A stretch of DNA of 64,000 nt from Nonlabens tegetincola. Its GTDB lineage: Bacteria; Bacteroidota; Bacteroidia; Flavobacteriales; Flavobacteriaceae. Shown in pieces: positions 2,952-61,400 of the stretch. Position 1 is the stretch's first letter; each line of letters opens with the position of its first letter. The notes beneath the pieces were generated by a model. The model did no database searches, was not told the DNA's origin, and was given only the letters and a program-made list of their open reading frames with translations. The DNA lies in contig NZ_MQVV01000012.1 of NCBI RefSeq assembly GCF_002954355.1, positions 124,001 through 188,000 of the forward strand, read 5' to 3'. The translations under genes were made by a program, and so were the position numbers.

Positions 2952-3470
2952 TTAAGAAAAAGTTAAGGTTTCTTGTGGGCGTTCTTTTGTCATTACCATG
3001 CTCTTTCTTTTGTCGTTGATTTTATAATGTACCATATTTTTTTGGTCATCAAACACCTCAAAAAGAGCAGTGAATTTCATTTTAATAGTTTCTGGCATTT
3101 TGGTAACCGGTAATTCTATGTAAAGCACAATTTGATCATCAATAAACTCTGCGCCCAATACGTTTACAGTTAGTTCCTTACCATCTACAGTGGCTTCAAT
3201 TTTACTTTGAAAATACTTTTCTAAATAAAAATTTACAGTTTTTAAATCCTTAATTCCATCTAGCTTCACTTCCTTGCCAAAACGATCTTGTAAGGCATCT
3301 TCCATATCGTCTATAAAAAATCGACTGGTCATTTGAAGTGCGCTAGCCTTTTGTTTATAAGCGACATTGGAAACTGATAAATAGTATTTATGATCGTTTT
3401 GTTTAGTATGCTTTCGCGAAAGCGTAAACAGCACCAAACTACTGGTTACAATTAGAATAAGGTATTTCAT
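2952..3470 (-). CDS. DUF6702 family protein
   Basis: A 172-residue protein of the DUF6702 type (YYLSVSNVAY ... LQMTSRFFIDDMEDAL), which in flavobacteria is often found directly upstream of an M1 metallopeptidase gene, as here (58 bp gap). The N-terminus is a hydrophobic signal or anchor, residues 1-16. Residues 17-20 (LSRK) are encoded by a copy of the GCTTTCGCGAAAGC palindrome, so the normal signal-cleavage region appears altered. The function of the family is unknown. The shared neighbourhood suggests a role beside the peptidase at the cell envelope, which is inference. Confidence 0.8.
   Translation of the reverse strand: MKYLILIVTSSLVLFTLSRKHTKQNDHKYYLSVSNVAYKQKASALQMTSRFFIDDMEDALQDRFGKEVKLDGIKDLKTVNFYLEKYFQSKIEATVDGKELTVNVLGAEFIDDQIVLYIELPVTKMPETIKMKFTALFEVFDDQKNMVHYKINDKRKSMVMTKERPQETLTFS
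3410..3423. repeat. GCTTTCGCGAAAGC palindrome, copy 1
   Basis: Perfect 14-bp palindrome inside the DUF6702 gene, read there as L-S-R-K. Confidence 0.95.
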
Positions 3471-3520
3471 ACTTACTAGATAAATTTTGCACTTAAATGT
3501 TACAAGTTATGTTCCAAAAA

Positions 3521-4066
3521 TTATAATTGTGTCACGTTACCTAGAAAGATGCCGTGAAAGCGCTCATCAGTATTATAAACAGCATCTATTTCAATGTAGA
3601 ATCCAGTGCTGTATGGACTTACTCGTATAAAACCTGATTCAAATGCGGTAATCGCATTGAGGTTGTTACCGGTATCATAATTCTCTGAAAAACCTGCATT
3701 CACATCACCAATTTCTTGTGTTGAGTTGATTTCATAAGTACCACTTTGTAATGGGATGTTTCGATTGCCAAAAAACTCGAGATCAATGGCAAAGCCTGTA
3801 CCTGAAAGCGTACCAGAATTTTCTGTGATATTCTCGTCGGTAATCAATAATTGTGTGGAATAAGTGTCGCTAGAAATTTGTAAAAATTCTTCAAGATAAG
3901 CCGGTCTTACGCCTTGATTGTTTTGAAGATCGGGACCGTAACAAAAAACATTAAAGGTAATGGGTGGCAATTCTGGCAAATCATCATCATTGCTACAAGA
4001 GTTGATCCCTATAATTAGGAATAAGGATAGCACTAACTTTATTGGGAATAAGTTTTTTGTAGTCAT
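3521..4066 (-). CDS. Lipoprotein of unknown function
   Basis: A 181-residue protein with a signal peptide and lipobox (IGINSC, Cys about residue 24) followed by an acidic SNDDD linker, so it is probably an outer-membrane-attached lipoprotein. The rest is beta-rich with many Asn, Thr and Gly (for example NIPLQSGTYEINST), a composition common in small lipoproteins that build a single beta-sandwich. The start codon lies one base after the stop of the upstream gene, so the two are cotranscribed and probably translationally coupled. I do not recognise the family. Confidence 0.8.
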   Translation of the reverse strand: MTTKNLFPIKLVLSLFLIIGINSCSNDDDLPELPPITFNVFCYGPDLQNNQGVRPAYLEEFLQISSDTYSTQLLITDENITENSGTLSGTGFAIDLEFFGNRNIPLQSGTYEINSTQEIGDVNAGFSENYDTGNNLNAITAFESGFIRVSPYSTGFYIEIDAVYNTDERFHGIFLGNVTQL

Positions 4067-4067
4067 T

Positions 4068-4988
4068 TTATTGCTTTTTAATGGTTTCTTTCATTTTTAA
4101 AGAGTCTGTGGACATTGAGTTAAATTGAATATTGGTTTCTTGTGTTGATTCAGTTGGATGATAGTCAGGTAGATTCTTTTTTCTTTTGAATTCTGTTGCG
4201 GTCATGTTGAGAAACTGAAGTAAATCTAACTCATTTTGTTTAGAGAACATCTCTTCATTTAATCCTCTGTCCTTGGCGTAATACATGAATTCATAGAGGT
4301 ATTTTTCTTCTAATTTCAAGAATTCAGTTAGGAACTTAGTTTGGTATTTATTTTTAATTAAAATCACGTCAAACTCTTTTTTTTCTTCTACTGGTCCCGA
4401 GTTTAAATCAAGAGCGCTCAAAGTACTGTTGAGAACAACCGCACCTAGTAGTCCTACTAGGTTAAACATATTAAACCTGGGCATACTTTGGGCCATGGCT
4501 TCATGCCTTATAGCGTATTCTTCTGGTTGACGTTGACGATCAGAAAAGGTGTTGTCAATACGATCTACCGCTCTTGTACGTACATTAAATTCACTTACTT
4601 CGTCTATTTTGGGATCGACGTTGGTAACTTCTTTTACATCTATAAGCATCAAGCTTTCATTAATAACAACCTCATCTAGAACGTTTACTCCTTGCCTAAG
4701 TTGTATAGTAGCTTTTTTATCCTCAACAGTTTGCTCAGTGACCACTAAAGTAAGAGGTTCATATTGTACAGCTCTCAAGGTGAGTTTATCACCTGCTTTT
4801 ACATTCAAATAAAAGATACCATCATCATTAGTGACAGTACCATCAATGCTGTTATTATTAAAAATGGTAATTCCAGATAGCGGTTCTTCTGTTGCGCTTA
4901 GAATTTTTCCTTCTATTTGAGTTCGATTATTTTGTGACCATAAAAGGACTGAAAATAATAGGAGACCGATATTAATAATTGCTTTCAT
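4068..4988 (-). CDS. Carboxypeptidase-regulatory-like domain protein
   Basis: A 306-residue secreted protein. After a signal peptide (about 1-19) comes a CarboxypepD_reg-like beta-sandwich (residues about 23-110: IEGKILSATEEPLSGITIF, then GTVTNDDGIFYLNV and LDEVVI). This is the module found at the N-terminus of SusC/TonB-dependent receptors, but no barrel follows. The C-terminal half is charged and helical (ExKKEFDVILIKNKYQTKFL ...). It is the first gene of the minus-strand run. A candidate -7 box TAACTTTG lies at 5014-5007. The function is not known. Confidence 0.8.
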   Translation of the reverse strand: MKAIINIGLLLFSVLLWSQNNRTQIEGKILSATEEPLSGITIFNNNSIDGTVTNDDGIFYLNVKAGDKLTLRAVQYEPLTLVVTEQTVEDKKATIQLRQGVNVLDEVVINESLMLIDVKEVTNVDPKIDEVSEFNVRTRAVDRIDNTFSDRQRQPEEYAIRHEAMAQSMPRFNMFNLVGLLGAVVLNSTLSALDLNSGPVEEKKEFDVILIKNKYQTKFLTEFLKLEEKYLYEFMYYAKDRGLNEEMFSKQNELDLLQFLNMTATEFKRKKNLPDYHPTESTQETNIQFNSMSTDSLKMKETIKKQ

Positions 4989-5006
4989 AGCTTATTCTAT
5001 TTAAAA

Positions 5007-5014
5007 CAAAGTTA
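5007..5014 (-). promoter_or_regulatory. Candidate -7 box (TAACTTTG) for the 4068-4988 gene
   Basis: Matches TAnnTTTG of the Bacteroidota main sigma factor, 18 bp upstream of the start. I see no good -33 TTG. Confidence 0.4.
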
Positions 5015-5125
5015 CTCATACTTGTTACTGTATGACACACTTAAATTAAGCTTTAAGTTAATGTTTGTAAAAAGACTTTACATTAAAGTTTACTTAATTT
5101 ACAAATACAAGGAGAGATTAACTTG

Positions 5126-5133
5126 TAATTTTG
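5126..5133 (+). promoter_or_regulatory. Candidate -7 box (TAATTTTG) for pepE
   Basis: Matches TAnnTTTG and ends 34 bp before the pepE start. I see no clear -33 TTG. Confidence 0.4.
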
Positions 5134-5167
5134 ATGATAATTGTTATTCTTAAAGTGGTAAAAATTT

Positions 5168-5881: not shown

Positions 5882-5892
5882 ATCTTAAACCT

Positions 5893-6792: not shown

Positions 6793-8967
6793 ATGAGAAA
6801 CAGTTTTTTGTTCGTCTTTTTCTTGCCATTTATAATGATGGCGCAAGAGTCTACACCTTTTATCATTCAAAAGGCAGCCGAAAGATTATCACAAAACGAA
6901 CTGCTTAATCAAGTAAATAGCTTTAGCTATGAGTCTTATGAGAATTTTAAAATAACTGGTGATCCAGAGGCTTTAACAGGTCCAGGTTATAAAAAAACCG
7001 AATTACGTAAGACTTTAAAAAAAACGCAAGTACTTTTTTCAGAGCGTACCATCCTGCATGTATACGATTCAATAAAAGGATATAAAGAGGTAGTAACAGC
7101 AGCTCAAATGCCAGGTTTTGAAAAACCTGTATATCCTGTATATACTATCATATTTCAATCCCAGTTTTTAAATCAAAAGGATTATATAATACTTGATCAA
7201 CGATTTAAAAATCCATTGCATTCTTCAAGAACTGAATTCTACGATTATCAAATCGAAAAAGATTCCGTAATAGAGAACAGAACTGTCTATAAAGTAAATT
7301 TTAAACCACAACCTCTTGCAGAAATCCCCAATTTATTAGAAGGTACCGTTTACATAGATGCTGTTAATTATGATGTTGTTCTCTTTGAAATTGATACACC
7401 AGGAGAACTCAATATAGAGACTCTTCATAGCTTTACCTACAATACAAAAGCCGGAGTTTGGGTTCCTTTAAAAAGATCTTTGTATGTAAAAAAGCAGAAA
7501 ACTAAAAAGGAATTGGAGCTTTTTGGTGGTAGGCTAGAGGTAGGTAACGAATCTCCGTCTGAAAATCAAACAGGACAAGATTTGTATATGATTCTAGAAG
7601 TGGATTACTTCAATTATGAATTAAATATACCGGTAGATTTTGGAAAGAAGGGTATTCTTACTGAAATCCCTGACGAGGCAATAGGTCGGCCAGAATCATA
7701 TTGGGATGAATATCGAGATTCAAAAGAGGCCTATACAACAACACAACTAGCTCAATTTACAAACTTGGATAGTGTGGTTACCGCGACCAAGATTAATAGA
7801 AAACTAGAAACACTTGATAAGTTTAAGGTGGGCTATTATCCAGCAGGATTTTTTGATATTGATTTAAAGTATCTAGTAAAATACAATGATTACGAGGCGT
7901 TTAGATTGGGAGTTGGTGGTCAAACTAATGAGAAATTAAGTGAAAAATGGAGGTTAAGTGGTTACGTGGCCTACGGTACTAAGGATGATCGATTTAAATA
8001 TAAAATAAGCGCAGGATTTAGAATTGACGAAGAAAAAAACACATGGCTCAACCTATATAAAAGTGAGGATATTGCTGAAATAGGTGCCGAAAAATTCTTG
8101 ACTGATGCACGTGTTTATAGTCTTTTTGAGCCTAGACTTATCAATATTCCAACTTTCTTTAAATACAATAGTGTAGGAGCCTCACTACAACAGCGATTAT
8201 TCCCTTCGTTGATAAGTGAGATCTCGCTTTCGCGAAAGCGAATTACTCAAACAACATTTTATGAATTCAGGCCTAGGGATAATAGTTTTACTAACTATAC
8301 CTTATCTGAAGTGGTTATAGGTGCGAGGTATAGTCCAGTAAGCACCTTTATGCTTACTCCTAGCGGTTATCAAGAAATAACACGAGGTTATCCAATATTA
8401 AGTGCTCAATACACACAAGGAATAAAAGGATTGTATGGATCAAACTTTAATTACGGAAAGTTGTCTGCCAAAGCGGTATATTTTCAACCCTGGAAGGACA
8501 ATTCTTTTACTGAATTGCAAGTAGAAGGTCACTACGGCCGTGGCGATATTCCTCTTACCCATCTTTATCATGCTTACCCTAACTCACCTACAAAAGATGA
8601 ATTATTGCAAAGGTTTTCAGTTGCAGGTAGGCGCAGTTTTGAAACCATGTATTTCAATGAGTTCTTTTCTGATAGATTGATCACAGCACAAGTAAAGCAT
8701 AGATTCCCTGCACTTAACATTGCATCGTTTTTAAAGCCTGAAGTTGCCTTTATTACTAGGGCAGCCTTAGGTAGTATGAACAATACTGAAGAGCATATAG
8801 GAATTGGGTTTGACACTCTAGAACACGGTTATTTTGAAAGTGGTGTTGAATTAAATAAACTCCTTTTCGGATTTGGATTAAGCTTTTCTTACCGCTATGG
8901 GGCTTATCATTTGCCTGATATTGAGGACAATCTTGCGTTAAAATTTACCTTTTATTTAGAATTGTAG
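6793..8967 (+). CDS. DUF5686 family outer-membrane protein
   Basis: A 724-residue protein. The start at ATG 6793 gives a good signal peptide (RNSFLFVFFLPFIMMAQ); an upstream GTG at 6742 would bury it. The N-terminal third resembles DUF5686 (helix IIQKAAERLSQN, then SFSYESYENFKITGDPE). The C-terminal part has alternating strands and ends in an aromatic strand (LALKFTFYLEL), as in an outer-membrane beta-barrel. Many DUF5686 proteins carry a CarboxypepD_reg domain before this region and here I do not see one. Palindrome copy 2 encodes LSRKR near residue 480. The family's function is unknown; the context is envelope genes. Confidence 0.8.
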   Translation: MRNSFLFVFFLPFIMMAQESTPFIIQKAAERLSQNELLNQVNSFSYESYENFKITGDPEALTGPGYKKTELRKTLKKTQVLFSERTILHVYDSIKGYKEVVTAAQMPGFEKPVYPVYTIIFQSQFLNQKDYIILDQRFKNPLHSSRTEFYDYQIEKDSVIENRTVYKVNFKPQPLAEIPNLLEGTVYIDAVNYDVVLFEIDTPGELNIETLHSFTYNTKAGVWVPLKRSLYVKKQKTKKELELFGGRLEVGNESPSENQTGQDLYMILEVDYFNYELNIPVDFGKKGILTEIPDEAIGRPESYWDEYRDSKEAYTTTQLAQFTNLDSVVTATKINRKLETLDKFKVGYYPAGFFDIDLKYLVKYNDYEAFRLGVGGQTNEKLSEKWRLSGYVAYGTKDDRFKYKISAGFRIDEEKNTWLNLYKSEDIAEIGAEKFLTDARVYSLFEPRLINIPTFFKYNSVGASLQQRLFPSLISEISLSRKRITQTTFYEFRPRDNSFTNYTLSEVVIGARYSPVSTFMLTPSGYQEITRGYPILSAQYTQGIKGLYGSNFNYGKLSAKAVYFQPWKDNSFTELQVEGHYGRGDIPLTHLYHAYPNSPTKDELLQRFSVAGRRSFETMYFNEFFSDRLITAQVKHRFPALNIASFLKPEVAFITRAALGSMNNTEEHIGIGFDTLEHGYFESGVELNKLLFGFGLSFSYRYGAYHLPDIEDNLALKFTFYLEL
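8226..8239. repeat. GCTTTCGCGAAAGC palindrome, copy 2
   Basis: Perfect copy (16-bp palindrome with flanking C/G) in the DUF5686 gene, read as L-S-R-K. Confidence 0.95.
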
Positions 8968-13037: not shown

Positions 13038-14492
13038 ATGCTTAAGCAAACACTCAATTTTAAACTTTCTCAAAAGCTGTCTCCGCAGCAAATTCAGCTC
13101 ATGAAATTGATTCAACTGCCTACACAGGCATTTGAACAACGAGTTAAATCTGAACTTGAGGAAAATCCTGCACTTGATAGTGGCAAGGAAAAATCAGAAG
13201 ATGAGTATGACTCACTTACTAACGACGATTTTGATCAAGATAATGAAACCATCGAGGCAGATATCAATGTTGATGAATATTTAAGCGACGACGAGATACC
13301 AGAATATCGTACGCAATCTAATAACTACAGTGCGGATGAAGACGAGAAAAGTGTTCCTTATGCGGCAGGAAAATCATTTACTCAAACCCTTCTTGATCAG
13401 CTTAATACTAGGCGATTATCCGATCAAGAAGCTAGTATCGCGCAATTTTTAGTAGGTAGCATAGATGGTAGCGGTTACATACGCAGATCATTGGAGGATA
13501 TTGCAGATGACCTAGCCTTTACCATGAACGTTTACACCGATGTGGATGAGGTAGAAAAGGTGTTGCGTATCGTACAACAGCTAGATCCTGCCGGAGTAGG
13601 AGCCCGTAGTTTGCAGGAGTGTTTATTGATTCAGCTTTCGCGAAAGCGTAATTCCCCAGATACTGAGCTTGCAATTAAGTTGATTAGAGACAGTTTTGAC
13701 GCTTTTAGTAAAAAGCACTATAAAAAATTACTTTCTAAATACAATGTAAGTGAGGAAGAATTGCGTGATGCTATTGAAGAAATAGAGCATTTAAACCCAA
13801 AACCTGGAGGCTCATACGCTGGCGGCAGTACAAAAATCGTAGAGCAAGTTGTTCCAGATTTTACAATTAGAATTAAAGACGGCGAGTTAGAACTTACTCT
13901 AAATGGTCGTAATGCTCCAGAGCTACACGTGTCTAGAGACTACTCTAACATGCTTAAAGGTTATAAAGAGGCAAAGGAGAAGACTAAGTCTCAAAAGGAC
14001 GCTGTGATGTTCATTAAACAAAAGCTGGATAGTGCAAAGTGGTTCATTGAGGCAATAAAGCAACGACAAGAAACACTGTTTGTAACGATGTCTAGCATTA
14101 TGCATTATCAAAAGGAATATTTCCTTACAGGTGATGAACGTAACTTACGTCCTATGATTTTAAAGGACATCGCCGATGAAATTGGTATGGACGTTTCTAC
14201 CGTGAGCCGTGTGGCAAATTCAAAGTATGTGGATACACCTTATGGAACAAAGTTGATCAAGGAATTTTTCTCGGAATCCATGACTAATACAGACGGAGAA
14301 GAGGTTTCTACTAGGGAAATAAAGAAAATACTAGAAACTGTGATTAATGAAGAGGATAAGAAAAAACCTCTTACGGATCAAAAACTAGCTGAGATCCTTA
14401 AGGATAAAGGTTATCCTATAGCCAGAAGAACGGTAGCTAAGTATCGTGAGCAGCTAGATATTCCCGTAGCAAGATTGCGTAAAGAGATCTAA
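13038..14492 (+). CDS. rpoN: RNA polymerase sigma-54 factor
   Basis: A 484-residue sigma-54. Region I (LSQKLSPQQIQLMKLIQLP, activator interaction) is followed by an acidic region II (about 45-115), the core-binding region, and the C-terminal DNA-binding part with the RpoN box ARRTVAKYRE at 462-471, which contacts the -24 element. It needs bacterial enhancer-binding proteins to open promoters; none is encoded in the window. Palindrome copy 3 encodes QLSRKRN near residue 200. The stop overlaps the next ATG (TAATG), so the membrane gene behind it is coupled. Confidence 0.95.
   Translation: MLKQTLNFKLSQKLSPQQIQLMKLIQLPTQAFEQRVKSELEENPALDSGKEKSEDEYDSLTNDDFDQDNETIEADINVDEYLSDDEIPEYRTQSNNYSADEDEKSVPYAAGKSFTQTLLDQLNTRRLSDQEASIAQFLVGSIDGSGYIRRSLEDIADDLAFTMNVYTDVDEVEKVLRIVQQLDPAGVGARSLQECLLIQLSRKRNSPDTELAIKLIRDSFDAFSKKHYKKLLSKYNVSEEELRDAIEEIEHLNPKPGGSYAGGSTKIVEQVVPDFTIRIKDGELELTLNGRNAPELHVSRDYSNMLKGYKEAKEKTKSQKDAVMFIKQKLDSAKWFIEAIKQRQETLFVTMSSIMHYQKEYFLTGDERNLRPMILKDIADEIGMDVSTVSRVANSKYVDTPYGTKLIKEFFSESMTNTDGEEVSTREIKKILETVINEEDKKKPLTDQKLAEILKDKGYPIARRTVAKYREQLDIPVARLRKEI
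13634..13647. repeat. GCTTTCGCGAAAGC palindrome, copy 3
   Basis: Perfect copy inside rpoN, read as L-S-R-K. Confidence 0.95.
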
Positions 14493-21292: not shown

Positions 21293-21916
21293 ATGTTTAC
21301 ATGGTTGCAAAAATTACTAGGTAATAAAGTAAAAACTCATGAAAGTGATATGAAAAAATTTCTAGTTGTAGGATTAGGAAATCCAGGTTCAAAATATACA
21401 GAAACACGACATAATATAGGTTTCAAGATACTAGACGAACTTGCTGCTATGAAAGATGTTACCTTTGAGACTCTAAAGTTAGGCGACGTAGCAACTACTA
21501 CACATAAAGGAAAGAAAGTGGTGCTCCTTAAACCTAATACCTTTATGAATTTGAGTGGTAAGGCGGTGAAATATTACATGAAACAGGAAAAAATAGAAAA
21601 AGAGAATATCCTAATTATTACAGACGATCTTAATCTGGAGTTCGGGACAATTCGCATGAAGGGAAAAGGTAGTGATGGTGGTCATAACGGTCTCAAGGAT
21701 GTTCAAATTACGTTGAATACTCCTAATTACCCTAGGCTTCGGTTCGGTATATCGGCCCAGTTTGGTAAAGGGCGACAGGTTGATTATGTGTTGGGAGAAT
21801 GGAATAAGGAAGAACAAGCAGCTTTACCAGAACGTATTGACAAAGCTTCAAATGCTGCTTTGGCTTTTATTCATGCAGGATTGTCTAATGCTATGAATGA
21901 ATTTAATGGTAAGTAG
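21293..21916 (+). CDS. pth: Peptidyl-tRNA hydrolase
   Basis: A 207-residue enzyme that frees tRNA from peptidyl-tRNA released by stalled ribosomes. It carries the conserved GLGNPG (N30), TRHNIGF (catalytic H40) and ITDDLNLEFG motifs and the GSDGGHNGLK loop. The first 20 residues (FTWLQKLLGNKVKTHESD) form an extension that I have seen in flavobacterial homologs; translation from Met20 is also possible. A palindrome copy with 22-bp symmetry lies just after the stop. Confidence 0.94.
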   Translation: MFTWLQKLLGNKVKTHESDMKKFLVVGLGNPGSKYTETRHNIGFKILDELAAMKDVTFETLKLGDVATTTHKGKKVVLLKPNTFMNLSGKAVKYYMKQEKIEKENILIITDDLNLEFGTIRMKGKGSDGGHNGLKDVQITLNTPNYPRLRFGISAQFGKGRQVDYVLGEWNKEEQAALPERIDKASNAALAFIHAGLSNAMNEFNGK

Positions 21917-21932: not shown

Positions 21933-21946
21933 GCTTTCGCGAAAGC
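21933..21946. repeat. GCTTTCGCGAAAGC palindrome, copy 4 (intergenic)
   Basis: Perfect copy between pth and ribF. The dyad extends to 22 bp (21929-21950, GTAC at the left end and GTAC at the right). Confidence 0.95.
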
Positions 21947-25608: not shown

Positions 25609-27405
25609 ATGAAATATGCTGTAACGCTTCTTTTTTTGTCTTTAGTGACGTGGTCAACGGCCCAAAGTTTGCAGTTGGCGCAAAACTACATGGACCAAGG
25701 CGAGTACAGTAAGGCAGCCAGCATATATGAAAAATTAGTCAACGATAAGAAAAATAGGAACTACAATACCGTATTTTCTTTAATTGATGCTTATCACCAA
25801 TTAGAAGAATACGGTAAAGTAGATTCTTTAATTGATAAAAAGGTATCTACATCTTTTGCATACAAACAAACCCTACTAATAGAAAAAGGTTATAATCAAG
25901 TATTGCAAGGAAATGATTCGATAGCTAGTAGCTATTATCAACAAGCAATCGATCTAGTAAAAGAAAAGCCAGAGCTTACTTACAGTATCGCAAGTAGGTT
26001 TGAAAAACGTACAGAACTGGATGAGGCTGTACAAGTCTATGAAATAGGAACCCAGCTTAGGCCACAAGCAAATTATAGTTTTCAGTTGGCTAGATTGTAT
26101 GGTGAACTAGGTGATATGGAGAAAATGTTTGAGGAAAACATTAAACTCATTGAAAAAAATGTCGCTTACAGGGCAAGAGCACAAGCTCTTTTTTCTCAAT
26201 ATATAACTGACGACGCATTGTCCGAGACTAATACGATATTGCGTAAAGTACTTCTTAAAAGATTACGTTCAAATCCAGATGTTTTATACAATCAATTGCT
26301 TTCATGGTTGTTTGTGCAGCAAAAGGATTTTAAAAATGCTTTTATTCAAGAAAAGGCAATTTACAATAGGGATAAAGAAAGTATGGACAACTTGCAGGAC
26401 CTTGCCGAGGTCGCAGTCGAGGAAAATGATATTCCTGCTGCATTTGACATACTGGACTTTATGATTGAGAATGCTCAATCTCCCTTTACTAGATACAATG
26501 CTCAGGTACTCAAACTTAAATTACGCTCTAATGGAGCTTCAGTTGATGAATATTCTCAAATAAAGCAAGAATATGAGCAGCTTCTTGAATTCTACGGTCG
26601 TGATCAACGCAGTTTTAGGTTACAATTAGATTATGCTCGGTTCTTGGCGTTCAAAAATGACAATGCACCACTAGCCATTGATTTATTGGCAGATCTCAAT
26701 AAAGCTAATTTTTCTCAATTTGATAAGGCTAGGGTAAAAATGTTACTAGCCGATGTCCTTGTTCTTCAAGAGCAATTTAATCGAGCCCTTATTTTATACA
26801 GTCAAATTCAAAATGATTTGCCCAATGATTTATTGGCTCAGGAATCTCAATATAGAGTAGCTCGTACCAGTTTTTATAAAGGAGATTTTCCTTGGGCACT
26901 TACTCAATTAAAAGTATTACGTAGCGCTAGCAGTAAGCTTATAGCAAATGATGCCATGCAATTGAGTCTAACGATTTCTGACCACTCTGGACAAGATACT
27001 ACGTATGTTGCTTTGTCCGCTTTCGCGAAAGCGGAATTAAAACAATATCAAAACAAAAGAAAGCAGGCTATTGAAGCCTACAATAATGTGCTGCAAAACC
27101 ATGCAGGTGACGACATTGAGGATGAGGCATTGTTAAGACAGGCAAAGCTATATCAGGTAGAAGGAGATACACAAAATGCTATCCAGAATTACACTAGGAT
27201 TATCAAAAATCATGGTGATGGTATTTTGAGTGATGATGCGCTTTACGAGCTAGGAAAGTTATATGAAGAAGTACTTGATGATCCTGCAAAAGCACAAGAA
27301 TATTTTGAACAAATAATTTTCTCACACGCAGATAGCATTTACTTCACAGATGCTAGACGTCGATACCGCAGATTGCGTGGTGATACTAATGAAAAAGCTT
27401 TTTAA
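25609..27405 (+). CDS. Tetratricopeptide-repeat protein, secreted
   Basis: A 598-residue protein with a signal peptide (about 1-18, WSTAQ) and many TPR helices, for instance AQNYMDQGEYSKAASIYEKL at the start and GKLYEEVLDDPAKAQEYFEQI near the end. It is a periplasmic scaffold for protein contacts with no enzymatic motif. It sits between serS (3 bp) and DUF4286 (2 bp), which is a frequent order in flavobacteria. Palindrome copy 5 encodes SAFAKAEL near residue 472, inside a helix. Confidence 0.88.
   Translation: MKYAVTLLFLSLVTWSTAQSLQLAQNYMDQGEYSKAASIYEKLVNDKKNRNYNTVFSLIDAYHQLEEYGKVDSLIDKKVSTSFAYKQTLLIEKGYNQVLQGNDSIASSYYQQAIDLVKEKPELTYSIASRFEKRTELDEAVQVYEIGTQLRPQANYSFQLARLYGELGDMEKMFEENIKLIEKNVAYRARAQALFSQYITDDALSETNTILRKVLLKRLRSNPDVLYNQLLSWLFVQQKDFKNAFIQEKAIYNRDKESMDNLQDLAEVAVEENDIPAAFDILDFMIENAQSPFTRYNAQVLKLKLRSNGASVDEYSQIKQEYEQLLEFYGRDQRSFRLQLDYARFLAFKNDNAPLAIDLLADLNKANFSQFDKARVKMLLADVLVLQEQFNRALILYSQIQNDLPNDLLAQESQYRVARTSFYKGDFPWALTQLKVLRSASSKLIANDAMQLSLTISDHSGQDTTYVALSAFAKAELKQYQNKRKQAIEAYNNVLQNHAGDDIEDEALLRQAKLYQVEGDTQNAIQNYTRIIKNHGDGILSDDALYELGKLYEEVLDDPAKAQEYFEQIIFSHADSIYFTDARRRYRRLRGDTNEKAF
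27019..27032. repeat. GCTTTCGCGAAAGC palindrome, copy 5
   Basis: Perfect copy in the TPR gene, read as A-F-A-K-A. The dyad extends to 20 bp (27016-27035). Confidence 0.95.
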
Positions 27406-32570: not shown

Positions 32571-32584
32571 GCTTTCGCGAAAGC
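32571..32584. repeat. GCTTTCGCGAAAGC palindrome, copy 6 (intergenic)
   Basis: Perfect copy between the divergent genes tatD and the retropepsin gene. Confidence 0.95.
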
Positions 32585-35118: not shown

Positions 35119-35858
35119 TGAGTACGTTCTCTTTTAAACAGTTTGACATCGTTCAAGATAAGGTTGCTCAAAAGGTAGGTACCGACGGTGTTCTTTTAGG
35201 AGCATGGTGTAGTCTTGATAAGCAACCACACAAAATATTAGATATAGGATCAGGAACAGGGCTCATCTCTTTAATGTGCGCTCAACGGTTTCCACAAGCG
35301 TTTATTGAGTCTATAGAGATCGATCACGATGCCTTTGAGCAAACTGCATCCAATTTTGAATCTAGCAAGTTTAAAGACCAACTATATGCATATCATGCTA
35401 GCTTTCAAGAGTTTTATGATGAGGTTGATGAGCGCTATGATTTTATGGTGAGTAATCCACCATTTTATAATGCTCAGTCAATTAAATCTGATGATCAAAT
35501 AGAGAGTCGTAGGCAACAAGCAAGATTTGACGATGCTTTACCTTTTGAAGAGCTTTTCTATGGTGTTTATAAGCTTCTTGCTATCGATGGTACTTTTGCA
35601 CTCGTATTTCCTGTAGATAGAGAAGAACGAGTTCTTGAAATTGCCGATTACTTCACCATGATGCCTACACGTAAAATGTACGTACGTGGAACTGTGGATA
35701 GTCCTGTTAAAAGAGTGTTTATGGAATTACGCTTTCGCGAAAGCGTAATAAAATCCAATCAAAAACTAGTTACCCAGCATATGGTAATTGAACATTCTAG
35801 GCATGAGTATACCGATGAGTATATCGCACTTACAAAGGACTTTTATTTAAAAATGTAA
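35118..35858 (+). CDS. trmN6: tRNA1(Val) (adenine(37)-N6)-methyltransferase
   Basis: A 246-residue SAM-dependent methyltransferase of the YfiC/TrmN6 type. It has the N-terminal FKQFDIVQDKVAQKVGTDGVLLGAW, the SAM loop DIGSGTGLISL, the acidic residue IEIDHDA and the adenine N6 motif NPPFY. Palindrome copy 7 encodes LRFRESVI near the C-terminus. Third gene of the rpsP operon. Confidence 0.93.
   Translation: MSTFSFKQFDIVQDKVAQKVGTDGVLLGAWCSLDKQPHKILDIGSGTGLISLMCAQRFPQAFIESIEIDHDAFEQTASNFESSKFKDQLYAYHASFQEFYDEVDERYDFMVSNPPFYNAQSIKSDDQIESRRQQARFDDALPFEELFYGVYKLLAIDGTFALVFPVDREERVLEIADYFTMMPTRKMYVRGTVDSPVKRVFMELRFRESVIKSNQKLVTQHMVIEHSRHEYTDEYIALTKDFYLKM
35731..35744. repeat. GCTTTCGCGAAAGC palindrome, copy 7
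   Basis: Perfect copy in trmN6, read as R-F-R-E-S. The dyad extends to 22 bp (35727-35748). Confidence 0.95.
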
Positions 35859-41619: not shown

Positions 41620-41633
41620 GCTTTCGCGAAAGC
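41620..41633. repeat. GCTTTCGCGAAAGC palindrome, copy 8 (intergenic)
   Basis: Perfect copy between the divergent pyrH and DUF3109 genes, just outside both promoter boxes. Confidence 0.95.
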
Positions 41634-44170: not shown

Positions 44171-45271
44171 TTGATCAAACTACACGACCTTTATTTTAAA
44201 CCCTTTATGAGCGCTAGGGAAATTGATAGCGCGGTTGATAATCTTGCCTATCAACTTAATCGTGATTTAGCAGATAAAAAGCCAATATTTCTCGGGATTC
44301 TGAATGGTAGTTTTATGGTCCTTGCAGATTTGGTGCGCAAATTTCAGCATCCTTGTGAAATAGCATTTATCAAGGCAAAAAGTTACGACGGAACACAAAG
44401 TACTGGTCAAGTAAAGTTAGAAGGATTGGATTTAGATTTATCCAATAGGACAGTCGTGGTAGTAGAAGATATAGTAGATACTGGACTTACTGTGGTCACG
44501 CTTTCGCGAAAGCTAACACAACTAAATCCCAAAGAACTACTAGTAGCTACCTTGTTTTTAAAACCTGATGTTTACAAACAAGAACTTAAAATAGACTACG
44601 TAGGTCTTAATATTGAAAACAAATTTGTCGTGGGATACGGCATGGATTATAATAATTTGGGGAGAGAATTACCCCAGCTTTACGTACAAACTAATAAAAT
44701 GAAAAACATCGTATTATTCGGTCCTCCTGGTGCTGGAAAAGGAACTCAAGCAGAACGTTTAAAGGAAAAATACAACCTCGTTCATATTTCTACAGGAGAC
44801 GTTTTTAGATACAACATCAAAAATGCAACAGAACTAGGTACCCTTGCAAAATCTTATATAGATAAAGGAGATTTGGTTCCTGATGAGGTAACGATCAAAA
44901 TGCTTAAAGCCGAAGTCGAAAAAAATCCTCAAGCCGAAGGTTTTATTTTTGATGGGTTTCCTAGAACAAACGCTCAAGCCGAGGCACTTGATAACTTATT
45001 GCAGTCCATGGATACTGAGGTAAGCGGTATGGTTGCACTAGAAGTAGAAGATGAAATTTTAGTAAAGCGTTTACTTGAAAGAGGAAAAACAAGCGGTCGT
45101 GCCGATGATGCTAATGAAGATGTTATTAGAGACCGAGTAAAAGTTTATTATAAGCAAACAGCACCACTTAAAGACTACTATGCTGCTCAAGACAAGTATT
45201 ATGGAGTTGATGGAGTAGGAGCTATTGATGAAATTACACAGCGATTGAGTGTAGAGTTTGATAAGTTATAA
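44171..45271 (+). CDS. adk: Bifunctional hypoxanthine phosphoribosyltransferase-adenylate kinase
   Basis: A 366-residue fusion. Residues 1-176 are an HPRT (IKLHDLYFKPFMSAREID, FLGILNGSFM, PRPP loop VVVVEDIVDTGLT), which salvages hypoxanthine/guanine. Residues 177-366 are a complete short-LID adenylate kinase (FGPPGAGKGTQAERL, DGFPRTNAQAEAL, GRADD), which makes 2 ADP from AMP and ATP. I start at TTG 44171 because HPRT homologs begin at the IKLHD strand; a TTG at 44153 is part of the -7 box. Palindrome copy 9 encodes LSRK after the PRPP loop. Such fusions are known in other flavobacteria. Confidence 0.92.
   Translation: MIKLHDLYFKPFMSAREIDSAVDNLAYQLNRDLADKKPIFLGILNGSFMVLADLVRKFQHPCEIAFIKAKSYDGTQSTGQVKLEGLDLDLSNRTVVVVEDIVDTGLTVVTLSRKLTQLNPKELLVATLFLKPDVYKQELKIDYVGLNIENKFVVGYGMDYNNLGRELPQLYVQTNKMKNIVLFGPPGAGKGTQAERLKEKYNLVHISTGDVFRYNIKNATELGTLAKSYIDKGDLVPDEVTIKMLKAEVEKNPQAEGFIFDGFPRTNAQAEALDNLLQSMDTEVSGMVALEVEDEILVKRLLERGKTSGRADDANEDVIRDRVKVYYKQTAPLKDYYAAQDKYYGVDGVGAIDEITQRLSVEFDKL
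44500..44513. repeat. GCTTTCGCGAAAGC palindrome, copy 9
   Basis: Perfect copy inside the HPRT part of hpt-adk, read as L-S-R-K. Confidence 0.95.
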
Positions 45272-47534: not shown

Positions 47535-48803
47535 TTAAGGGTATAGTAAATAATTCTTACGGATTTTCAAGAAGGCATTAAGGTCATTTTGCCAACTGTC
47601 TCTAATTTCCTCAGGCGTTAAGCCAGCTTGAATCTGTTCTTGCAGCTTTTTTGTTCCAGCGAGCTTGGTGAAGAAGGAGTTGAAGAATTCACTTTGGTTG
47701 GGCGCTTTCGCGTAAGCGGTAACTAAATATTCAAGATCTAGATTGCTTAATGACTTGCTCTCTTGTAAATCCATACCGTAACAAGTTTTATTTTCATGTT
47801 TTGGATATTGTGCTCCTGGATTTGATTGTGGAGTAAAGGAAAATTCGTAATCATTTTTATAATAAGGAGCTCCAAAAATTTGAAATTGTTTATCCGTACC
47901 TCTACCTACACTAACCGTTGTTCCTTCAAAAAAGCAAAGGCTAGGATATAAATTGATGGATTTATCGTTGGGTAAATTTGGAGAAGGAGCTATGGGTATT
48001 GAATACTTACTGTCATGACTGTAATCACTCATTTTAATAATAGACAAAGGACATTGCAACTTATAATCTAACCAACCTTCACCATTGATCATTTGAGCAT
48101 ATTCACCAATAGTCATTCCATGTACAACCGGAATTGGATGCATGCCGACGAAACTTTGATGTTCTTTTTCTAAAACAGGTCCATCGACATAATGTCCATT
48201 TGGATTAGGCCGATCTAGAACAAATAACTTTCGATCGTTTGCTGCACAAGCTTGCATTACATAATGTAAAGTACTTATGTAAGTATAAAATCTAGCACCT
48301 ACATCTTGAATGTCAAAAATGACAAAATCCACATCGGTAATGTGTTCGTCTTTAGGTTGTTTGTTTTTTCCATAAAGCGATATAACTGGTACACCTGTTT
48401 TTGCATCAATTCCATCCTTTATGGTTGCGCCAGCATCGGCAGTACCTCTAAACCCATGTTCTGGAGCAAACACCCTTTTTACTTTGACTCCAAGCGATAG
48501 TAAAGTGTCTACAAGATGTACATAAGTGGTGTCCTGGCCTTTAATTTTTTGAACTACACTGGTTTGATTTCCTACTACAGCAACGGTTTTGTTTACAAAA
48601 CCGCGACCCCAAATTCCAATACGATCTGCAGCAGGTTTGGGATAGGTAACACTTATCGATGAGTCAACAGCGGTTTCAATCGCAGCGTCATTTATGGCAA
48701 CGACTTTTTCTATCTTAGGTTTGCAGTTTGTAAACACTAGTAAAAGCAGTAAAACGCTATATTTGATTGCAGAAAAAGAAAGTTTGAATTTAGAATATTT
48801 CAT
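47535..48803 (-). CDS. DUF1343/NamZ-like exo-beta-N-acetylmuramidase, lipoprotein
   Basis: A 422-residue lipoprotein (SVLLLLLVFTNC lipobox) of the DUF1343 family, whose characterised member NamZ removes terminal MurNAc from peptidoglycan fragments. Family blocks are clear: VKRVFAPEHGFRG, FDIQDVGARFYTYISTLH, IPVVHGMTIGEYAQMINGEGW and SPNLPNDKSINLYPSLCFFEG. It likely serves cell-wall recycling. A one-mismatch copy of the palindrome encodes AYAKA. Its 5' end overlaps the divergent permease gene by about 20 bp. Confidence 0.9.
   Translation of the reverse strand: MKYSKFKLSFSAIKYSVLLLLLVFTNCKPKIEKVVAINDAAIETAVDSSISVTYPKPAADRIGIWGRGFVNKTVAVVGNQTSVVQKIKGQDTTYVHLVDTLLSLGVKVKRVFAPEHGFRGTADAGATIKDGIDAKTGVPVISLYGKNKQPKDEHITDVDFVIFDIQDVGARFYTYISTLHYVMQACAANDRKLFVLDRPNPNGHYVDGPVLEKEHQSFVGMHPIPVVHGMTIGEYAQMINGEGWLDYKLQCPLSIIKMSDYSHDSKYSIPIAPSPNLPNDKSINLYPSLCFFEGTTVSVGRGTDKQFQIFGAPYYKNDYEFSFTPQSNPGAQYPKHENKTCYGMDLQESKSLSNLDLEYLVTAYAKAPNQSEFFNSFFTKLAGTKKLQEQIQAGLTPEEIRDSWQNDLNAFLKIRKNYLLYP
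47704..47717. repeat. Degenerate palindrome GCTTTCGCGTAAGC (copy 10, one mismatch)
   Basis: One base away from the GCTTTCGCGAAAGC element. It lies in the NamZ-like gene and is read as A-Y-A-K-A. Confidence 0.8.
48758..48765 (+). promoter_or_regulatory. Candidate -7 box (TATATTTG) of the permease gene, inside the NamZ-like gene
   Basis: Matches TAnnTTTG, 18 bp before TTG 48784. It lies within the signal-peptide coding region of the opposite gene. Confidence 0.5.
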
Positions 48804-50038: not shown

Positions 50039-50584
50039 ATGGCGTTGTTCAAAAGAGATCCTTGGATTCTAGATGTTTACCGTACTTACGGCGGCGAGCA
50101 TCACTTATACGTGCGTGGTAGGGCGCTTGAGGATCAACCTCTTAAACACTATGAACAACAAACCTTCTATCAAACCTTACGTAACACCTGGCGCACTTTT
50201 GCTACCGATGAAATTCGCAATGCTTTAGTAGTGTTAACCTTGTCAAACGGTGATAAGTTTGAAACGCAAGCCGATCATGAAGGATACTTTTTATTCAATT
50301 TAGAAGTTGATTACAATTTGCTCGATCTGGTAGATGAGTCTGGTTACTTGCCTGTCGTGGTAAGTTTTCACGAGGATAATGCAGCTTTCGCGAAAGCAAA
50401 AACTCAAAAGCGTATTGCTATCAACCGATTTAGCGGTGAGATTTTAATCCCTAAAGAAACTTCGTCTTACGGAATTATAAGCGATATCGACGATACCATC
50501 ATGCATACTGGTGTGACTAGTTTTTTGAAAATGCGTGTTGCTTTTAATACTTTTTTAAAAATTATGATAGGCGTGTGCCTTTAA
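50039..50584 (+). CDS. App1 family phosphatase, N-terminal part (gene split by a frameshift)
   Basis: A 181-residue product that ends early. It holds the N-terminal App1 region and the HAD nucleophile motif DIDDT (149-153, GIISDIDDTIMHTG), used by yeast App1 to dephosphorylate phosphatidate. After TFLK the frame runs into a short random tail (IMIGVCL) and stops. A -1 shift at 50551-50557 continues directly into the C-terminal part at 50575. Palindrome copy 11 encodes AAFAKAK at about 115-121. The intact gene would span 50039-51066 (about 342 residues). Confidence 0.85.
   Translation: MALFKRDPWILDVYRTYGGEHHLYVRGRALEDQPLKHYEQQTFYQTLRNTWRTFATDEIRNALVVLTLSNGDKFETQADHEGYFLFNLEVDYNLLDLVDESGYLPVVVSFHEDNAAFAKAKTQKRIAINRFSGEILIPKETSSYGIISDIDDTIMHTGVTSFLKMRVAFNTFLKIMIGVCL
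50384..50397. repeat. GCTTTCGCGAAAGC palindrome, copy 11
   Basis: Perfect copy in the App1 gene, read as A-F-A-K-A. Confidence 0.95.
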
Positions 50585-51182: not shown

Positions 51183-52283
51183 TTAACTAAGCACCTTTTT
51201 ATTTTTCTTATAAAACGCATCTGCTTGTTGTTGCATGAGTTCTCGGGCTACACGTTTACGATGGTTGTATAGGGCGTCCTCCTCGGCAATATCTGCATAA
51301 ACTCTATTGTTTACTTCGCGATCAGTTTGTAATAAGATTGCATGCTGTTGACGTTGTTGTGCTACCCAATTCTCCACTACTGCTAGTCGTTCTTCTAACT
51401 TTAAATCATATTCACCTCGTGGTGAGAGAAGTTTGGCTATAATAGGCGATGTTTCAATGGCTAGGAATAGTAGAAAGATGAAAAATGATGTAATAAAAGG
51501 TAATTGATTTAATGCTTCAATTCGAGCCATAAGTCCGTCAAATTTGTCTATGATGGGTTGAGTGCTTGCGATTTGTGCTTTCTCTTGTTCTGCGAGTGTG
51601 GCCATTTGAGTTTCTAGGGCCTCAATTTTTTCTGCATTAGTGGCTTTTAGGTCTGTTAACTCTGCTAGAGCTGCATCGTGTTTTTCTCGTTTTTCCTTAT
51701 AAACGGGACCTTTACCTAGCAAGTTGGTTCCTGCTCGTCCTTCCGCTTCGGCGATGTAAGTGTTGTAGAGTTCATTTACCTCACTTTCCTTATCTGTAAT
51801 CTCTTGTTTTAGATCTTGGATCGCTTTCGCGAAAGCGGATTCCTCAACCTCATATAATGCAGCGACTTGCTCCTGATTTTCTAGCGTCATCGCGTTTTTT
51901 TCTTCTAGCAAGACTTGATCAATTTCTTTTTCAAAGATTTTAAGTTCAAGCGGTTTTGAAATCACCATTGCGATTATAATGGCCAATAATATACGCGGTG
52001 TTGCCTGCCATATTTCATTAATTTTTTTATCACTTTTCTTTAGGGTAGAAACAATGTATCTATCCAAATTGAAGATGAGTAAACCCCAAATAAAGCCAAA
52101 AAAGCCCGCAATCCAGTAATTATCAAAAACGGTAAAGAGCGCATAACTAGCAGCAAAAAACGCCATAAGAGCGGTAAAGAAAACGGTGGCACCTATACCG
52201 GCGTATTTGTTACGTTCACCAGCTGTACACTGGTCTAGGAGATCGGCATCGGCGCCGCTGCAGAATATGAAAAAGGATTGCAT
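51183..52283 (-). CDS. DUF4407 domain-containing membrane protein
   Basis: A 366-residue protein of the DUF4407 family: FCSGADADLLDQCTAGERNKYAGIG, two close TM helices (about 30-72), WGLLIFNLDRYIVSTLKK, a third TM (RILLAIIIAMVIS), a long coiled coil (about 120-245, rich in Glu/Ala/Lys) and a fourth TM (FITSFFIFLLFLAIETSPI). Its function is unknown; it resembles a sensor or scaffold with a long helical stalk. Palindrome copy 12 encodes SAFAKAI in the coiled coil. A terminator hairpin touches the start codon. Confidence 0.87.
   Translation of the reverse strand: MQSFFIFCSGADADLLDQCTAGERNKYAGIGATVFFTALMAFFAASYALFTVFDNYWIAGFFGFIWGLLIFNLDRYIVSTLKKSDKKINEIWQATPRILLAIIIAMVISKPLELKIFEKEIDQVLLEEKNAMTLENQEQVAALYEVEESAFAKAIQDLKQEITDKESEVNELYNTYIAEAEGRAGTNLLGKGPVYKEKREKHDAALAELTDLKATNAEKIEALETQMATLAEQEKAQIASTQPIIDKFDGLMARIEALNQLPFITSFFIFLLFLAIETSPIIAKLLSPRGEYDLKLEERLAVVENWVAQQRQQHAILLQTDREVNNRVYADIAEEDALYNHRKRVARELMQQQADAFYKKNKKVLS
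51823..51836. repeat. GCTTTCGCGAAAGC palindrome, copy 12
   Basis: Perfect copy in the DUF4407 gene, read as A-F-A-K-A on the minus strand. Confidence 0.95.
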
Positions 52284-56319: not shown

Positions 56320-56333
56320 GCTTTCGCGAAAGC
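56320..56333. repeat. GCTTTCGCGAAAGC palindrome, copy 13 (intergenic)
   Basis: Perfect copy 18 bp behind the stop of the secreted protein gene and just before the terminator. Confidence 0.95.
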
Positions 56334-57970: not shown

Positions 57971-57980
57971 CAAAAGAAGA

Positions 57981-58004
57981 GCTCGCTTTAAGCGGGCTTT
58001 TTTT
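57981..58004 (+). terminator. Terminator of tRNA-Leu(UAG)
   Basis: GCTCGCTT / AGCGGGC stem with wobble pairing and seven T. Confidence 0.8.
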
Positions 58005-58956: not shown

Positions 58957-58980
58957 AATAATTGAGTCGTCAATAATATA

Positions 58981-59011
58981 AACTTCCCTTAACCGAGGGA
59001 AGTTTTTTTAT
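58981..59011. terminator. Terminator of folE
   Basis: AACTTCCCT / AGGGAAGTT stem, loop TAACCG, followed by seven T. It overlaps the end of the convergent acyltransferase gene. Confidence 0.9.
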
Positions 59012-60093: not shown

Positions 60094-60235
60094 TGATTAG
60101 TTTAATAGTTGATGTATAGCAAAATTAATGATAAACATTAACTCAAAAGTACTATCTAGAGTATTCAATGTTTTAATGGTGTTGTAATCGGTAGAATAAA
60201 ATGTAGAAATGGATTCAATTCAAAATAGCCGTAAA

Positions 60236-60265
60236 ACAAAAAAGCCTCTCCTTTTGGAAAAGCTT
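60236..60265 (-). terminator. Terminator of tRNA-Asp
   Basis: On the minus strand AAGCTTTTCC-AAAA-GGAGAGGCTT, with two GU pairs, followed by a T-run. Two more hairpins lie between it and the tRNA. Confidence 0.75.
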
Positions 60266-60343
60266 CTCACAAAGTGTTTTCACACTTTCTGTCTTCAAAT
60301 TGAAGACCACACAACTTGATTTGTTTTCTTTTAAAAAGAAAAG

Positions 60344-60417
60344 CGGTCTGGACGGGATTCGAACCCGCGACCCCATGCGTGACAGGCATGTATTCTAACC
60401 AGCTGAACTACCAGACC
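60344..60417 (-). tRNA. tRNA-Asp (anticodon GTC)
   Basis: A 74-nt class I tRNA: acceptor GGTCTGG/CCAGACC, D-arm GTTCAGCTGGTTAGAA, anticodon stem CATGC/GCATG with loop CTGTCAC, T-loop GGTTCGAATCC. The 3' CCA is not encoded. Confidence 0.96.
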
Positions 60418-60587
60418 GTGTTCTAAAGAACTTTGCTATCGCAGCTTTCTGCTTTAGCGGTTGCAAATATATACTCATTTTTAGTTTTGCACAAACAATT
60501 TTTTACTTTTTTCAATTAATTTATTTTTTAACCTTATGATAGCATTCTAAACAGCTTTGTTTAAAGGTGATTAGATACTTTTACGCT

Positions 60588-61400
60588 ATGATAAAATTAT
60601 TAGCTACCGATATAGATGGGACTCTTTTGAATGATAATCGAGAGGTTTCATCTTCAACTATAAAGGCATTTAAAGATCTTCATATTCCTAAAATTTTGAT
60701 ATCTGCACGCATGCCTCAAGCCATGACTCACCTACAAGAAGATTTAAAAATCACAGATCATCCCATGATTTGTTACAATGGAGCGCTTGTAATCTCAAAG
60801 GATCAGTCAATAGTTGATATAACGATACCTTTTAATACCATTTCTGATTTTGTCGAAATTGCCAGAATACATAATTTACATTGTAGTATTTATAGAGGTA
60901 AGGAGTGGTTTGTTCCTGAGTTGGATTTCTGGGCAAATAGAGAAATCAATAATACAAAGGTAGAGCCAGTTGTTCAGGATTACGGGCGTACGTTAGAATA
61001 TTTCAATCAGACTAGACATAAAGGTGGTGCCCATAAAATAATGTTGATGGGTGACGAGGAGTTTATGGATCTCGCTTTCGCGAAAGCGGAATCTAAAAAA
61101 TTACCCGTACACTTATACAGATCAAAAAACACATATACCGAAATTACACCAAATGGAATTTCCAAAATAGAAGCATTGAAGGAGCTTTTAAAGCACGATT
61201 TTTCCAACGTAACTGTTGAACAGGTTGTTGCTTTTGGAGATAATTACAACGACGTTACCATGATTAAAGAAGTTGGTTATGGGATAGCGGTTGATAATGC
61301 AAGAGACAAGGTGAAAGAGGTTGCTGTCGAAGTTACTGACCATCATAAACAAGATGGTGTTGCAAATTGGTTAATAAAAAATTCTCGTTTGTTCCAATAA
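60588..61400 (+). CDS. Cof-type HAD superfamily phosphatase
   Basis: A 270-residue haloacid dehalogenase family hydrolase with a C2B cap. It has the nucleophile motif ATDIDGTLL (D8, D10), motif II (PKILISARMP), Lys in motif III, and motif IV GDNYNDVTMI. It probably dephosphorylates sugar phosphates, flavin or PLP-type compounds. I start at ATG 60588; the GTG 21 bp upstream would add a stretch absent in this family. Palindrome copy 14 encodes LAFAKAES near residue 165. Confidence 0.9.
   Translation: MIKLLATDIDGTLLNDNREVSSSTIKAFKDLHIPKILISARMPQAMTHLQEDLKITDHPMICYNGALVISKDQSIVDITIPFNTISDFVEIARIHNLHCSIYRGKEWFVPELDFWANREINNTKVEPVVQDYGRTLEYFNQTRHKGGAHKIMLMGDEEFMDLAFAKAESKKLPVHLYRSKNTYTEITPNGISKIEALKELLKHDFSNVTVEQVVAFGDNYNDVTMIKEVGYGIAVDNARDKVKEVAVEVTDHHKQDGVANWLIKNSRLFQ
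61074..61087. repeat. GCTTTCGCGAAAGC palindrome, copy 14
   Basis: Perfect copy in the HAD gene, read as A-F-A-K-A. Confidence 0.95.

Follow-up and report, generated by a model that had tools for sequence, protein, structure and literature searches.

The window, a 64-kb stretch of Nonlabens DNA analyzed at its full length, carries 13 perfect copies of a 14-bp palindrome and one copy with a single mismatch. The positions of all 14 were confirmed as given in the original prediction, and besides these the window holds no further copy with two or fewer mismatches. Four of the 13 perfect copies had been described as intergenic, and those at 21933, 32571, 41620 and 56320 do fall between ORFs of the ORF list. 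The sites are as follows.

3410..3423, perfect site, within a DUF6702-domain ORF (2952-3470, minus strand)
8226..8239, perfect site, inside a DUF5686 ORF; aligned copy in all six named Nonlabens loci covering the position (L003-L008)
13634..13647, perfect site, inside rpoN; same place in 7 of 7 named Nonlabens loci
21933..21946, perfect site, intergenic; preceding ORF ends at 21916, following ORF starts at 22018
27019..27032, perfect site, inside ORF 25609-27405, which matches TPR-type families weakly
32571..32584, perfect site, intergenic (32541/32615); the named Nonlabens loci L006 and L007 have an aligned copy
35731..35744, perfect site, within an ORF that encodes a small methyltransferase domain (MTS)
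41620..41633, perfect site, intergenic (41553/41694)
44500..44513, perfect site, inside a phosphoribosyltransferase-adenylate kinase fusion ORF; none of the 14 bases changed in 21 of the 22 Nonlabens genomes aligned
47704..47717, one-mismatch copy, inside a NamZ-family ORF (minus strand)
50384..50397, perfect site, inside ORF 50039-50584
51823..51836, perfect site, inside a DUF4407 ORF (minus strand)
56320..56333, perfect site, intergenic (56302/56392)
61074..61087, perfect site, inside a HAD-hydrolase ORF

Dinucleotide shuffles of the window contained a mean of 0.18 copies at two or fewer mismatches (maximum 2). Markov models of orders 1-4 trained on the window predict 0.00004-0.0002 perfect copies, in agreement with the earlier rough figure of order 0.0001. 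The expectation rises to 0.06 and 5.1 copies at orders 5 and 6, because models of these orders, trained on the same window, have learned the repeats.

The abundance extends far beyond the window. The 3.03 Mb Nonlabens genome to which the window belongs contains 577 copies of the 14-mer and none of the reversed control, and the motif was found in 23 of 23 Nonlabens genomes at 288-857 copies each (752 in G008 and 563 in G010). Both outcomes are opposite to those that the original prediction had named as refuting it. The density is one copy per 4.5-5 kb. A second genus is heavily marked in 18 of 18 genomes, and a third in the one genome searched, where the search used just the 10-bp core. That core occurs 0-37 times in each of the other 391 of 397 genomes of the family (Flavobacteriaceae). 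The motif is abundant in just three of the genera searched. Perfect copies greatly outnumber copies with a single mismatch: a 400-kb part of G000 has 87 of the former and 3 of the latter, and the 2.398 Mb read of G022 has 536 and 70. In the literature searched, no text contained the 14-mer or its 12-mer, and none of those containing the 10-mer was titled on flavobacteria; among the papers listed on iterated palindromes or uptake motifs in flavobacteria, none was seen to describe the 14-mer.

Copies are retained in place. Of 34 coding copies mapped between two species whose proteins have a median identity of 69%, 29 are still present: 23 are exact and unmoved, 3 carry a single mismatch, and 3 are perfect but shifted by 2, 14 or 29 nt. 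These figures refer to orthologue pairs of at least 45% identity and exclude 5 of 39 mapped coding sites below 45% (likely paralogues). The three shifted copies count as retained, although two of them are close to protein starts, in regions of uncertain alignment. Only 1% of random 14-mers stay perfect in the same comparison. A comparison between genera covered 11 sites, all mapped through one-way best hits; for 7 of these, the pair had at least 45% identity. The rpoN site, the sole site with outgroups aligned, is missing without an indel from 73 other flavobacterial loci; as judged from this alignment, substitutions created it and nothing was inserted. The proposal of a genome-wide recognition site comparable to HIP1 of cyanobacteria is well supported by genus-wide abundance and in-place retention.

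Spacing, context and flanks were analyzed in one genome, G022, a second Nonlabens genome (2.398 of 2.872 Mb), and checked on a smaller scale in G000, G229 and G244; genes of G022 were called with a purpose-written dicodon script and no standard gene caller. Sites in G022 are far more even than chance: the coefficient of variation (CV) of the gaps is 0.59, compared with 1.02 when sites are simulated at an unchanged intergenic share, and 6 gaps are shorter than 1 kb, compared with 116. Even spacing was also seen among the first of the sites listed for G229 (CV 0.67, 99 gaps) and G244 (CV 0.55, 49 gaps). Predicted genes contain 314 of the 536 G022 copies, and 222 lie between genes where 51.6 are expected, a roughly fourfold enrichment. 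The intergenic sites are distributed in rough proportion across all gene orientations, and convergent regions are not favored (24 of 222 sites, 14.5% of intergenic bases). When density was followed from origin to terminus, as the original prediction had suggested, no trend appeared; it was 19-24 sites per 100 kb at every distance from parS in the 2.398 Mb read. The site is genome-wide, evenly spaced and maintained copy by copy.

The 14-mer is the center of a signature of about 80 bp with two-fold symmetry. Constraint is equal on the two halves of the core, which hold 37 and 33 single mismatches. The flanks had been said to differ at each site, which holds in that no flank is copied, but they share a weak symmetric signature of about 30 nt per side. 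It consists of alternating T-rich and G-rich blocks; each strand is GT-rich on the 5' side of the core, and the skew fades about 30 nt out. The T-rich blocks lie at -3/-4, -10 to -13 and -24 to -31, with a best period of about 9 bp over a few cycles only; in uptake sequences, flanking AT-rich segments are spaced by about one helical turn. A 14-mer kept nearly letter-perfect amid changing surrounding DNA points to a protein reader, with a role perhaps in recognition of own DNA or in chromosome organization. The 14-mer is almost certainly the core of an ~80-bp recognition site for one sequence-specific, two-fold symmetric (dimeric) predicted reader.

Genome-wide iterated words are rare. This one is a longer and sharper signal than HIP1, occurs in culturable marine bacteria, and has carrier and non-carrier genera side by side within one family. 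Its exact 14 bp and informative flanks make the site an ideal bait for the protein that reads it, whose identity would tell how one sequence tiles a genome and what keeps about 600 copies exact. When the predicted proteins of G022 and of the G000 stretch were searched by regular expression for methylases, recombinases and a second ParB, none stood out as a reader, and site pairs closer than 1.3 kb in G022 had no obvious gene in common that hinted at a reader gene.

The statistics of the 14-mer are closest to those of DNA-uptake sequences. The USS and DUS of Pasteurellaceae and Neisseriaceae (PMC1939737, PMC1626085) share with it many near-identical, clade-specific copies that arise by mutation, an excess of perfect over single-mismatch copies, even spacing and an intergenic excess; their AT-rich flanking segments can be set beside the T-rich blocks found here. 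Haemophilus influenzae has 1471 perfect and 764 single-mismatch copies (PMC1939737), and Pasteurellaceae sequences have a very strong consensus with AT-rich flanking segments and arise through mutation (PMC1626085). In Riemerella columbina, own DNA outcompetes foreign DNA in transformation (PMC7965970). Known uptake sequences are not palindromic, as PMC1939737 states for DUES. Unlike USS and DUS, which are non-palindromic and have one orientation, the 14-mer is a perfect dyad with symmetric halves and flanks, and its core measures 14 bp compared with 9-10 in uptake sequences.

Our first choice of mechanism, held with slightly less than even confidence, is that the site acts like a DNA-uptake (self-recognition) sequence. 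Site-bearing DNA would be preferentially taken up or recombined, so that alleles creating or restoring a perfect site would spread. A single site per few kilobases would suffice for one fragment; sites would therefore repel one another and fill the core genome evenly, with some phages and recent islands left without sites. Copy number, taxon range, perfect-copy excess, even spacing, intergenic excess, flank blocks and retention all speak for uptake, as does the presence of DprA and ComEC genes in G022 (sought in the G022 and G000 stretches). The palindrome with equally constrained halves speaks against it, since this suggests a dimeric and typically intracellular protein, and no receptor was found. 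More tentatively, a horizontally transferable dimeric-reader system may rewrite the genomes that it enters, building several hundred to about 1000 near-identical, evenly spaced ~80-bp palindromes by in-place mutation. If so, no earlier uptake or self-recognition sequence would have had dyad symmetry, and this one would, to our knowledge, be the first in Bacteroidota; it would have built up independently in two or three flavobacterial genera at the least.

Phages bear on uptake from both sides. Nonlabens phage P12024S has no copy in 35.7 kb, and the related P12024L has none in 35.0 of 35.65 kb; we take both to be lytic, and the records of the two list no integrase. Against this, some phage-like contigs do carry sites, although these were selected for holding a copy. 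Among the matches listed, viral contigs comprised many probable chance matches in GC-richer DNA and an AT-rich phage-like set. A blastn search of a phage collection with a 39-base stretch of the window gave short chance matches only.

Because dyad symmetry implies a dimeric reader, a chromosome-organizing protein is a close rival to uptake. An intracellular dimeric protein bound at about 600 even sites would wrap or bridge the DNA into loops of a few kilobases, which we regard as a real possibility, if a somewhat weaker one. The perfect dyad with its equally constrained halves, the symmetric flanks to about 30 nt, the strong in-place retention, and the even spacing with uniform density at any distance from parS are all consistent with it. 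Known architectural sites (parS, Noc, MatP, SlmA) tolerate mismatches and are biased to the origin or terminus, whereas the 14-mer is nearly exact and uniform. The absence of a reader among the proteins searched also counts against such a protein, and selection would have to hold 14 exact bases at each of about 600 redundant sites.

A Chi-like recombination or repair signal, read bidirectionally by AddAB, would protect own DNA and start RecA loading on GT-rich 3' tails. The density is similar to that of Chi in Escherichia coli, GT-rich DNA lies 5' of the core on each strand, the two related Nonlabens phages have no copy, and AddAB-type genes (PF12705) are present in 40 of 40 genomes. This last result cuts both ways: carriers and non-carriers alike have the domain, whereas the motif is abundant in three genera only. 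Known Chi sites are 5-8 nt long, non-palindromic and read as a single strand, unlike the 14-bp palindrome, and the skew found here fades about 30 nt from the core. We consider a Chi-like signal improbable.

HIP1 (GCGATCGC) is likewise a hyper-abundant exact palindrome; it is present inside and between genes and is kept in place across species. A role in chromosome organization has been suggested for it in cyanobacteria, and we know of no function established after decades. The 14-mer differs in its longer core, its sparser occurrence, its long and informative flanks, and its phylum. Elhai proposed that cyanobacterial HIPs are the product of a methyltransferase and methyl-directed repair, and reports that each alternate HIP comes with a matching methyltransferase (PMC4390886). 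The same origin for our highly iterated palindrome seems more doubtful still than a Chi-like one. The C5 methylase family PF00145 and the N6/N4 family PF01555 are each present in 7 of 13 carrier genomes tested, so neither is common to all, and G008 and G010 have neither despite their 752 and 563 sites. An exact 14-bp core with informative flanks also goes beyond usual methylase specificity.

The suggested link to a ParB/Noc-type reader fared poorly, and we judge it very unlikely. Both kinds of site have the TTTC..GAAA palindrome, but the halves are 2 bp apart in the 14-mer and 4 bp apart in parS and Noc sites, and the 14-mer occurs in hundreds of exact, chromosome-uniform copies with no depletion far from parS. 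Eight of eight carriers tested have a single chromosomal-type ParB (~300 aa), as do 32 other genomes; extra copies occur in some genomes, among the eight carriers only in G019 (616 aa). G022 has an ordinary, canonical parS near its GC-skew minimum, separate from the 14-mer.

A mobile repeat, REP element, terminator hairpin or cruciform can practically be dismissed: the core is a perfect inverted repeat, but, unlike extragenic REP elements, 314 of 536 G022 copies lie inside predicted genes, and convergent regions hold only 24 of 222 intergenic sites against 14.5% of the bases. Hairpins and cruciforms are rejected, since complementarity between the two flanks does not exceed that of shuffled flanks (z = -0.4). 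The original view that this is not a mobile repeat is borne out by genus-wide abundance, in-place retention across species and the apparent origin of the rpoN site by substitution.

The window contains 13 perfect copies of the palindrome GCTTTCGCGAAAGC and one single-mismatch copy at 47704, all at the places given in the original prediction; scanning the window with up to two mismatches revealed no further copy. Shuffled windows held a mean of 0.18 copies (two mismatches or fewer). Markov models of orders 1 to 4 predict 0.00004 to 0.0002 copies of the 14-mer, which bears out the claim that far less than one is expected in 64 kb. A count over the whole source genome (G000, 3.03 Mb), as originally proposed, gave 577 copies versus none of the reversed control.

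The 14-mer was also sought in relatives, and all 23 Nonlabens genomes carry it (288 to 857 copies apiece). The same search of 36 genomes outside Nonlabens returned zero in 35 and six in one (G033). The best named relatives of the window's rpoN gene are seven Nonlabens loci (84–87% identity; other genera ≤80%), which hold 2–5 copies apiece; 73 named loci from elsewhere yielded one perfect copy, in a 13-kb Dokdonia sinensis locus that has two imperfect copies besides. Phylum-wide, 22 of 394 genomes have any copy, and none besides G000 exceeds six. When the family was searched for the 10-bp core TTTCGCGAAA (397 genomes, 231 genera), four sampled Nonlabens genomes had 591–700 copies and representatives of two further Flavobacteriaceae genera, G244 and G229, had 1107 and 559; the remaining 391 genomes had 0 to 37 (reversed control, 0 to 28). 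The full 14-mer occurs in all 18 genomes of G244's genus (369–905 copies) and at 26 of 31 sampled G229 and G244 sites (12/15 and 14/16), around which the GC content of the samples is 47% and 39%. The core ends are less exact in G244 than in G000, because 857 of 1107 cores lie within full copies in the former versus 577 of 591 in the latter. Core counts are moderately raised in three other genera, g61, g95 and g161 (24–37 in six genomes, 7 in one), and these may represent relics, related words or coincidence.

In a second Nonlabens genome (G022, assembled as a single contig, 2.398 of 2.872 Mb read), 536 copies are perfect, 70 have one mismatch and 24 have two, versus means of 0, 0.3 and 4.9 for control palindromes of the same composition; the corresponding counts in 400 kb of G000 are 87, 3 and 1. 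The core carries 29 bits of information, and the flanks add about 14 bits over 36 nt on each side. The flanks are two-fold symmetric. The 5′ side is C-poor and rich in T (−3/−4, −10 to −13 and −24 to −31) and G (−6, −9 and −15/−16), the 3′ side mirrors it, and the pattern fades about 30 nt out; the best periodicity, about 9 bp, spans only a few cycles. Single mismatches in G022 split evenly over the two halves of the core (37 and 33). No covariation links the two flanks at opposite positions (z = −0.4), so folding into a hairpin or cruciform is not the selected property. The flank and core pattern fits a putative protein that reads the halves independently. Core bases 3 and 4 are nearly invariant in G022 (0 and 2 of the 70 single mismatches) and T to C at position 5 is the commonest variant (folded count 20 of 70), a bias that may reflect contacts of the putative reader. 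A G immediately before the core and a C immediately after it each occur once in 536 copies, and a G-C pair lengthening the palindrome is practically never seen.

Sites in G022 are evenly spaced. Gaps average 4.5 kb with a coefficient of variation (CV) of 0.59, versus 1.02 in 300 simulations that preserved the intergenic share of sites, and six gaps are shorter than 1 kb versus 116 simulated (91 in the lowest run); excluding gaps with unread bases left this unchanged. Among the first sites listed, such short gaps number 6 of 99 in G229 (17.5 expected) and 1 of 49 in G244 (12.4 expected). Intergenic sites are in excess in G022 (222 of 536 versus 51.6 expected) and fall in tandem, divergent and convergent regions roughly in proportion to intergenic bases, while genic sites prefer the Ala-Phe-Ala-Lys frame (187 of 314). 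Ten gaps exceed 12 kb. As judged from translated ORFs, two harbor giant adhesin-like genes, and others a locus for polysaccharide use, a locus for surface polysaccharide or integrase/restriction-like genes. The genes in at least two resemble ordinary core genes, and unread bases apparently fall in at least one.

Retention was assessed by comparing coding sites of a 400-kb G000 stretch with reciprocal-best G022 orthologues (median identity 69%). Among the 39 sites that could be mapped, 23 match perfectly in place, three carry a single mismatch, two carry three mismatches and 11 carry at least six; 1% of random 14-mers are kept perfect. Five sites lie in orthologue pairs below 45% identity. Setting these aside leaves 34: 26 with at most one mismatch in place, three whose perfect copy is shifted by 2, 14 or 29 nt and five lacking a copy nearby. 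Intergenic sites are kept in 8 of 12 regions whose flanking genes are adjacent in both genomes; a looser count gives 9 of 13, with a G022 site in 7 of 83 regions siteless in G000. In an adenylate-kinase fusion gene, all 14 bases are intact in 21 of 22 aligned genomes (G009 is the exception; G021, where the gene is split over two contigs, was omitted); in the same 21 genomes, 88 of the 240 flanking alignment columns show no variation. The rpoN site is identical in all eight Nonlabens sequences and encodes LSRK then Arg; outgroups have mostly L-H-R-K-E, with varied codons. The alignment has no indel there, so the site arose by substitution, which evidently altered the protein. The changes in sigma-54 (window 13038–14492), relative to most outgroups, are H to S and E to R in the eight Nonlabens sequences. 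Between genera, none of 11 mapped sites coincides exactly; seven of them lie in gene pairs with 45% identity or more, and one of those seven has a copy 2 nt off. This small sample of 11 sites suggests that sites accumulated separately or have turned over for a long time.

The 14-mer is almost certainly a functional, maintained recognition sequence. For its role we tentatively favor uptake-like self-recognition. Unlike known DNA-uptake sequences, the 14-mer is palindromic, and we know of no uptake sequence of that form. G022 has DprA and ComEC genes. The available portions of two sources describe uptake sequences that resemble the 14-mer in their strong consensus, evenly spaced copies, excess between genes, T-rich flanks, mutational origin and clade specificity (PMC1939737, PMC1626085). 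Among relatives, Riemerella columbina favors DNA of its own kind in transformation, and the portion available establishes no motif (PMC7965970).

Ranked close behind, and possible if less probable, is a chromosome-organizing dimer that reads the sites. A nucleoid role was reportedly proposed for HIP1 in earlier work. Plotted along the origin–terminus axis of G022, sites show no trend (19–24 per 100 kb in all six bins of parS distance; 13–26 in single 100-kb blocks). The ParB/Noc-like reader originally suggested fares poorly: the eight site-rich genomes (carriers) tested and 32 other genomes alike have one chromosomal-type ParB, some (including carrier G019) with extra copies, and G022 has canonical parS. 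The likeness to HIP1 holds for palindromic form and is not borne out for the two methylase families compared. Elhai, in the part available, links HIPs to methylases (PMC4390886); here the C5 (PF00145) and N6/N4 (PF01555) families each occur in 7 of 13 carriers and are both missing from carriers G008 and G010. The AddAB-type domain PF12705 is present in 40 of 40 genomes, carriers or not. No carrier-specific gene emerged among the candidate families compared (ParB, PF00145, PF01555 and PF12705).

Two related Nonlabens phages have zero copies of the 14-mer. Two or three copies occur in 11–14 kb of phage-like contigs that carry genes for integrase, tail or head proteins and were chosen for holding a copy; L134 (head protease gene) has three and L117 (tape measure and integrase) two, with typical flanks. 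In some non-carriers, small clusters share a contig with a 616-aa ParB (G033 C18, G201 C1 and G145 C1) that probably belongs to a mobile element, which suggests that these are mobile elements formerly resident in carrier hosts. G061 is an exception, its listed core copies and long ParB being on different contigs. Distances between the 616-aa ParB and the first site are about 6 kb (G033), 10 kb (G145, for the core only) and 32 kb (G201).
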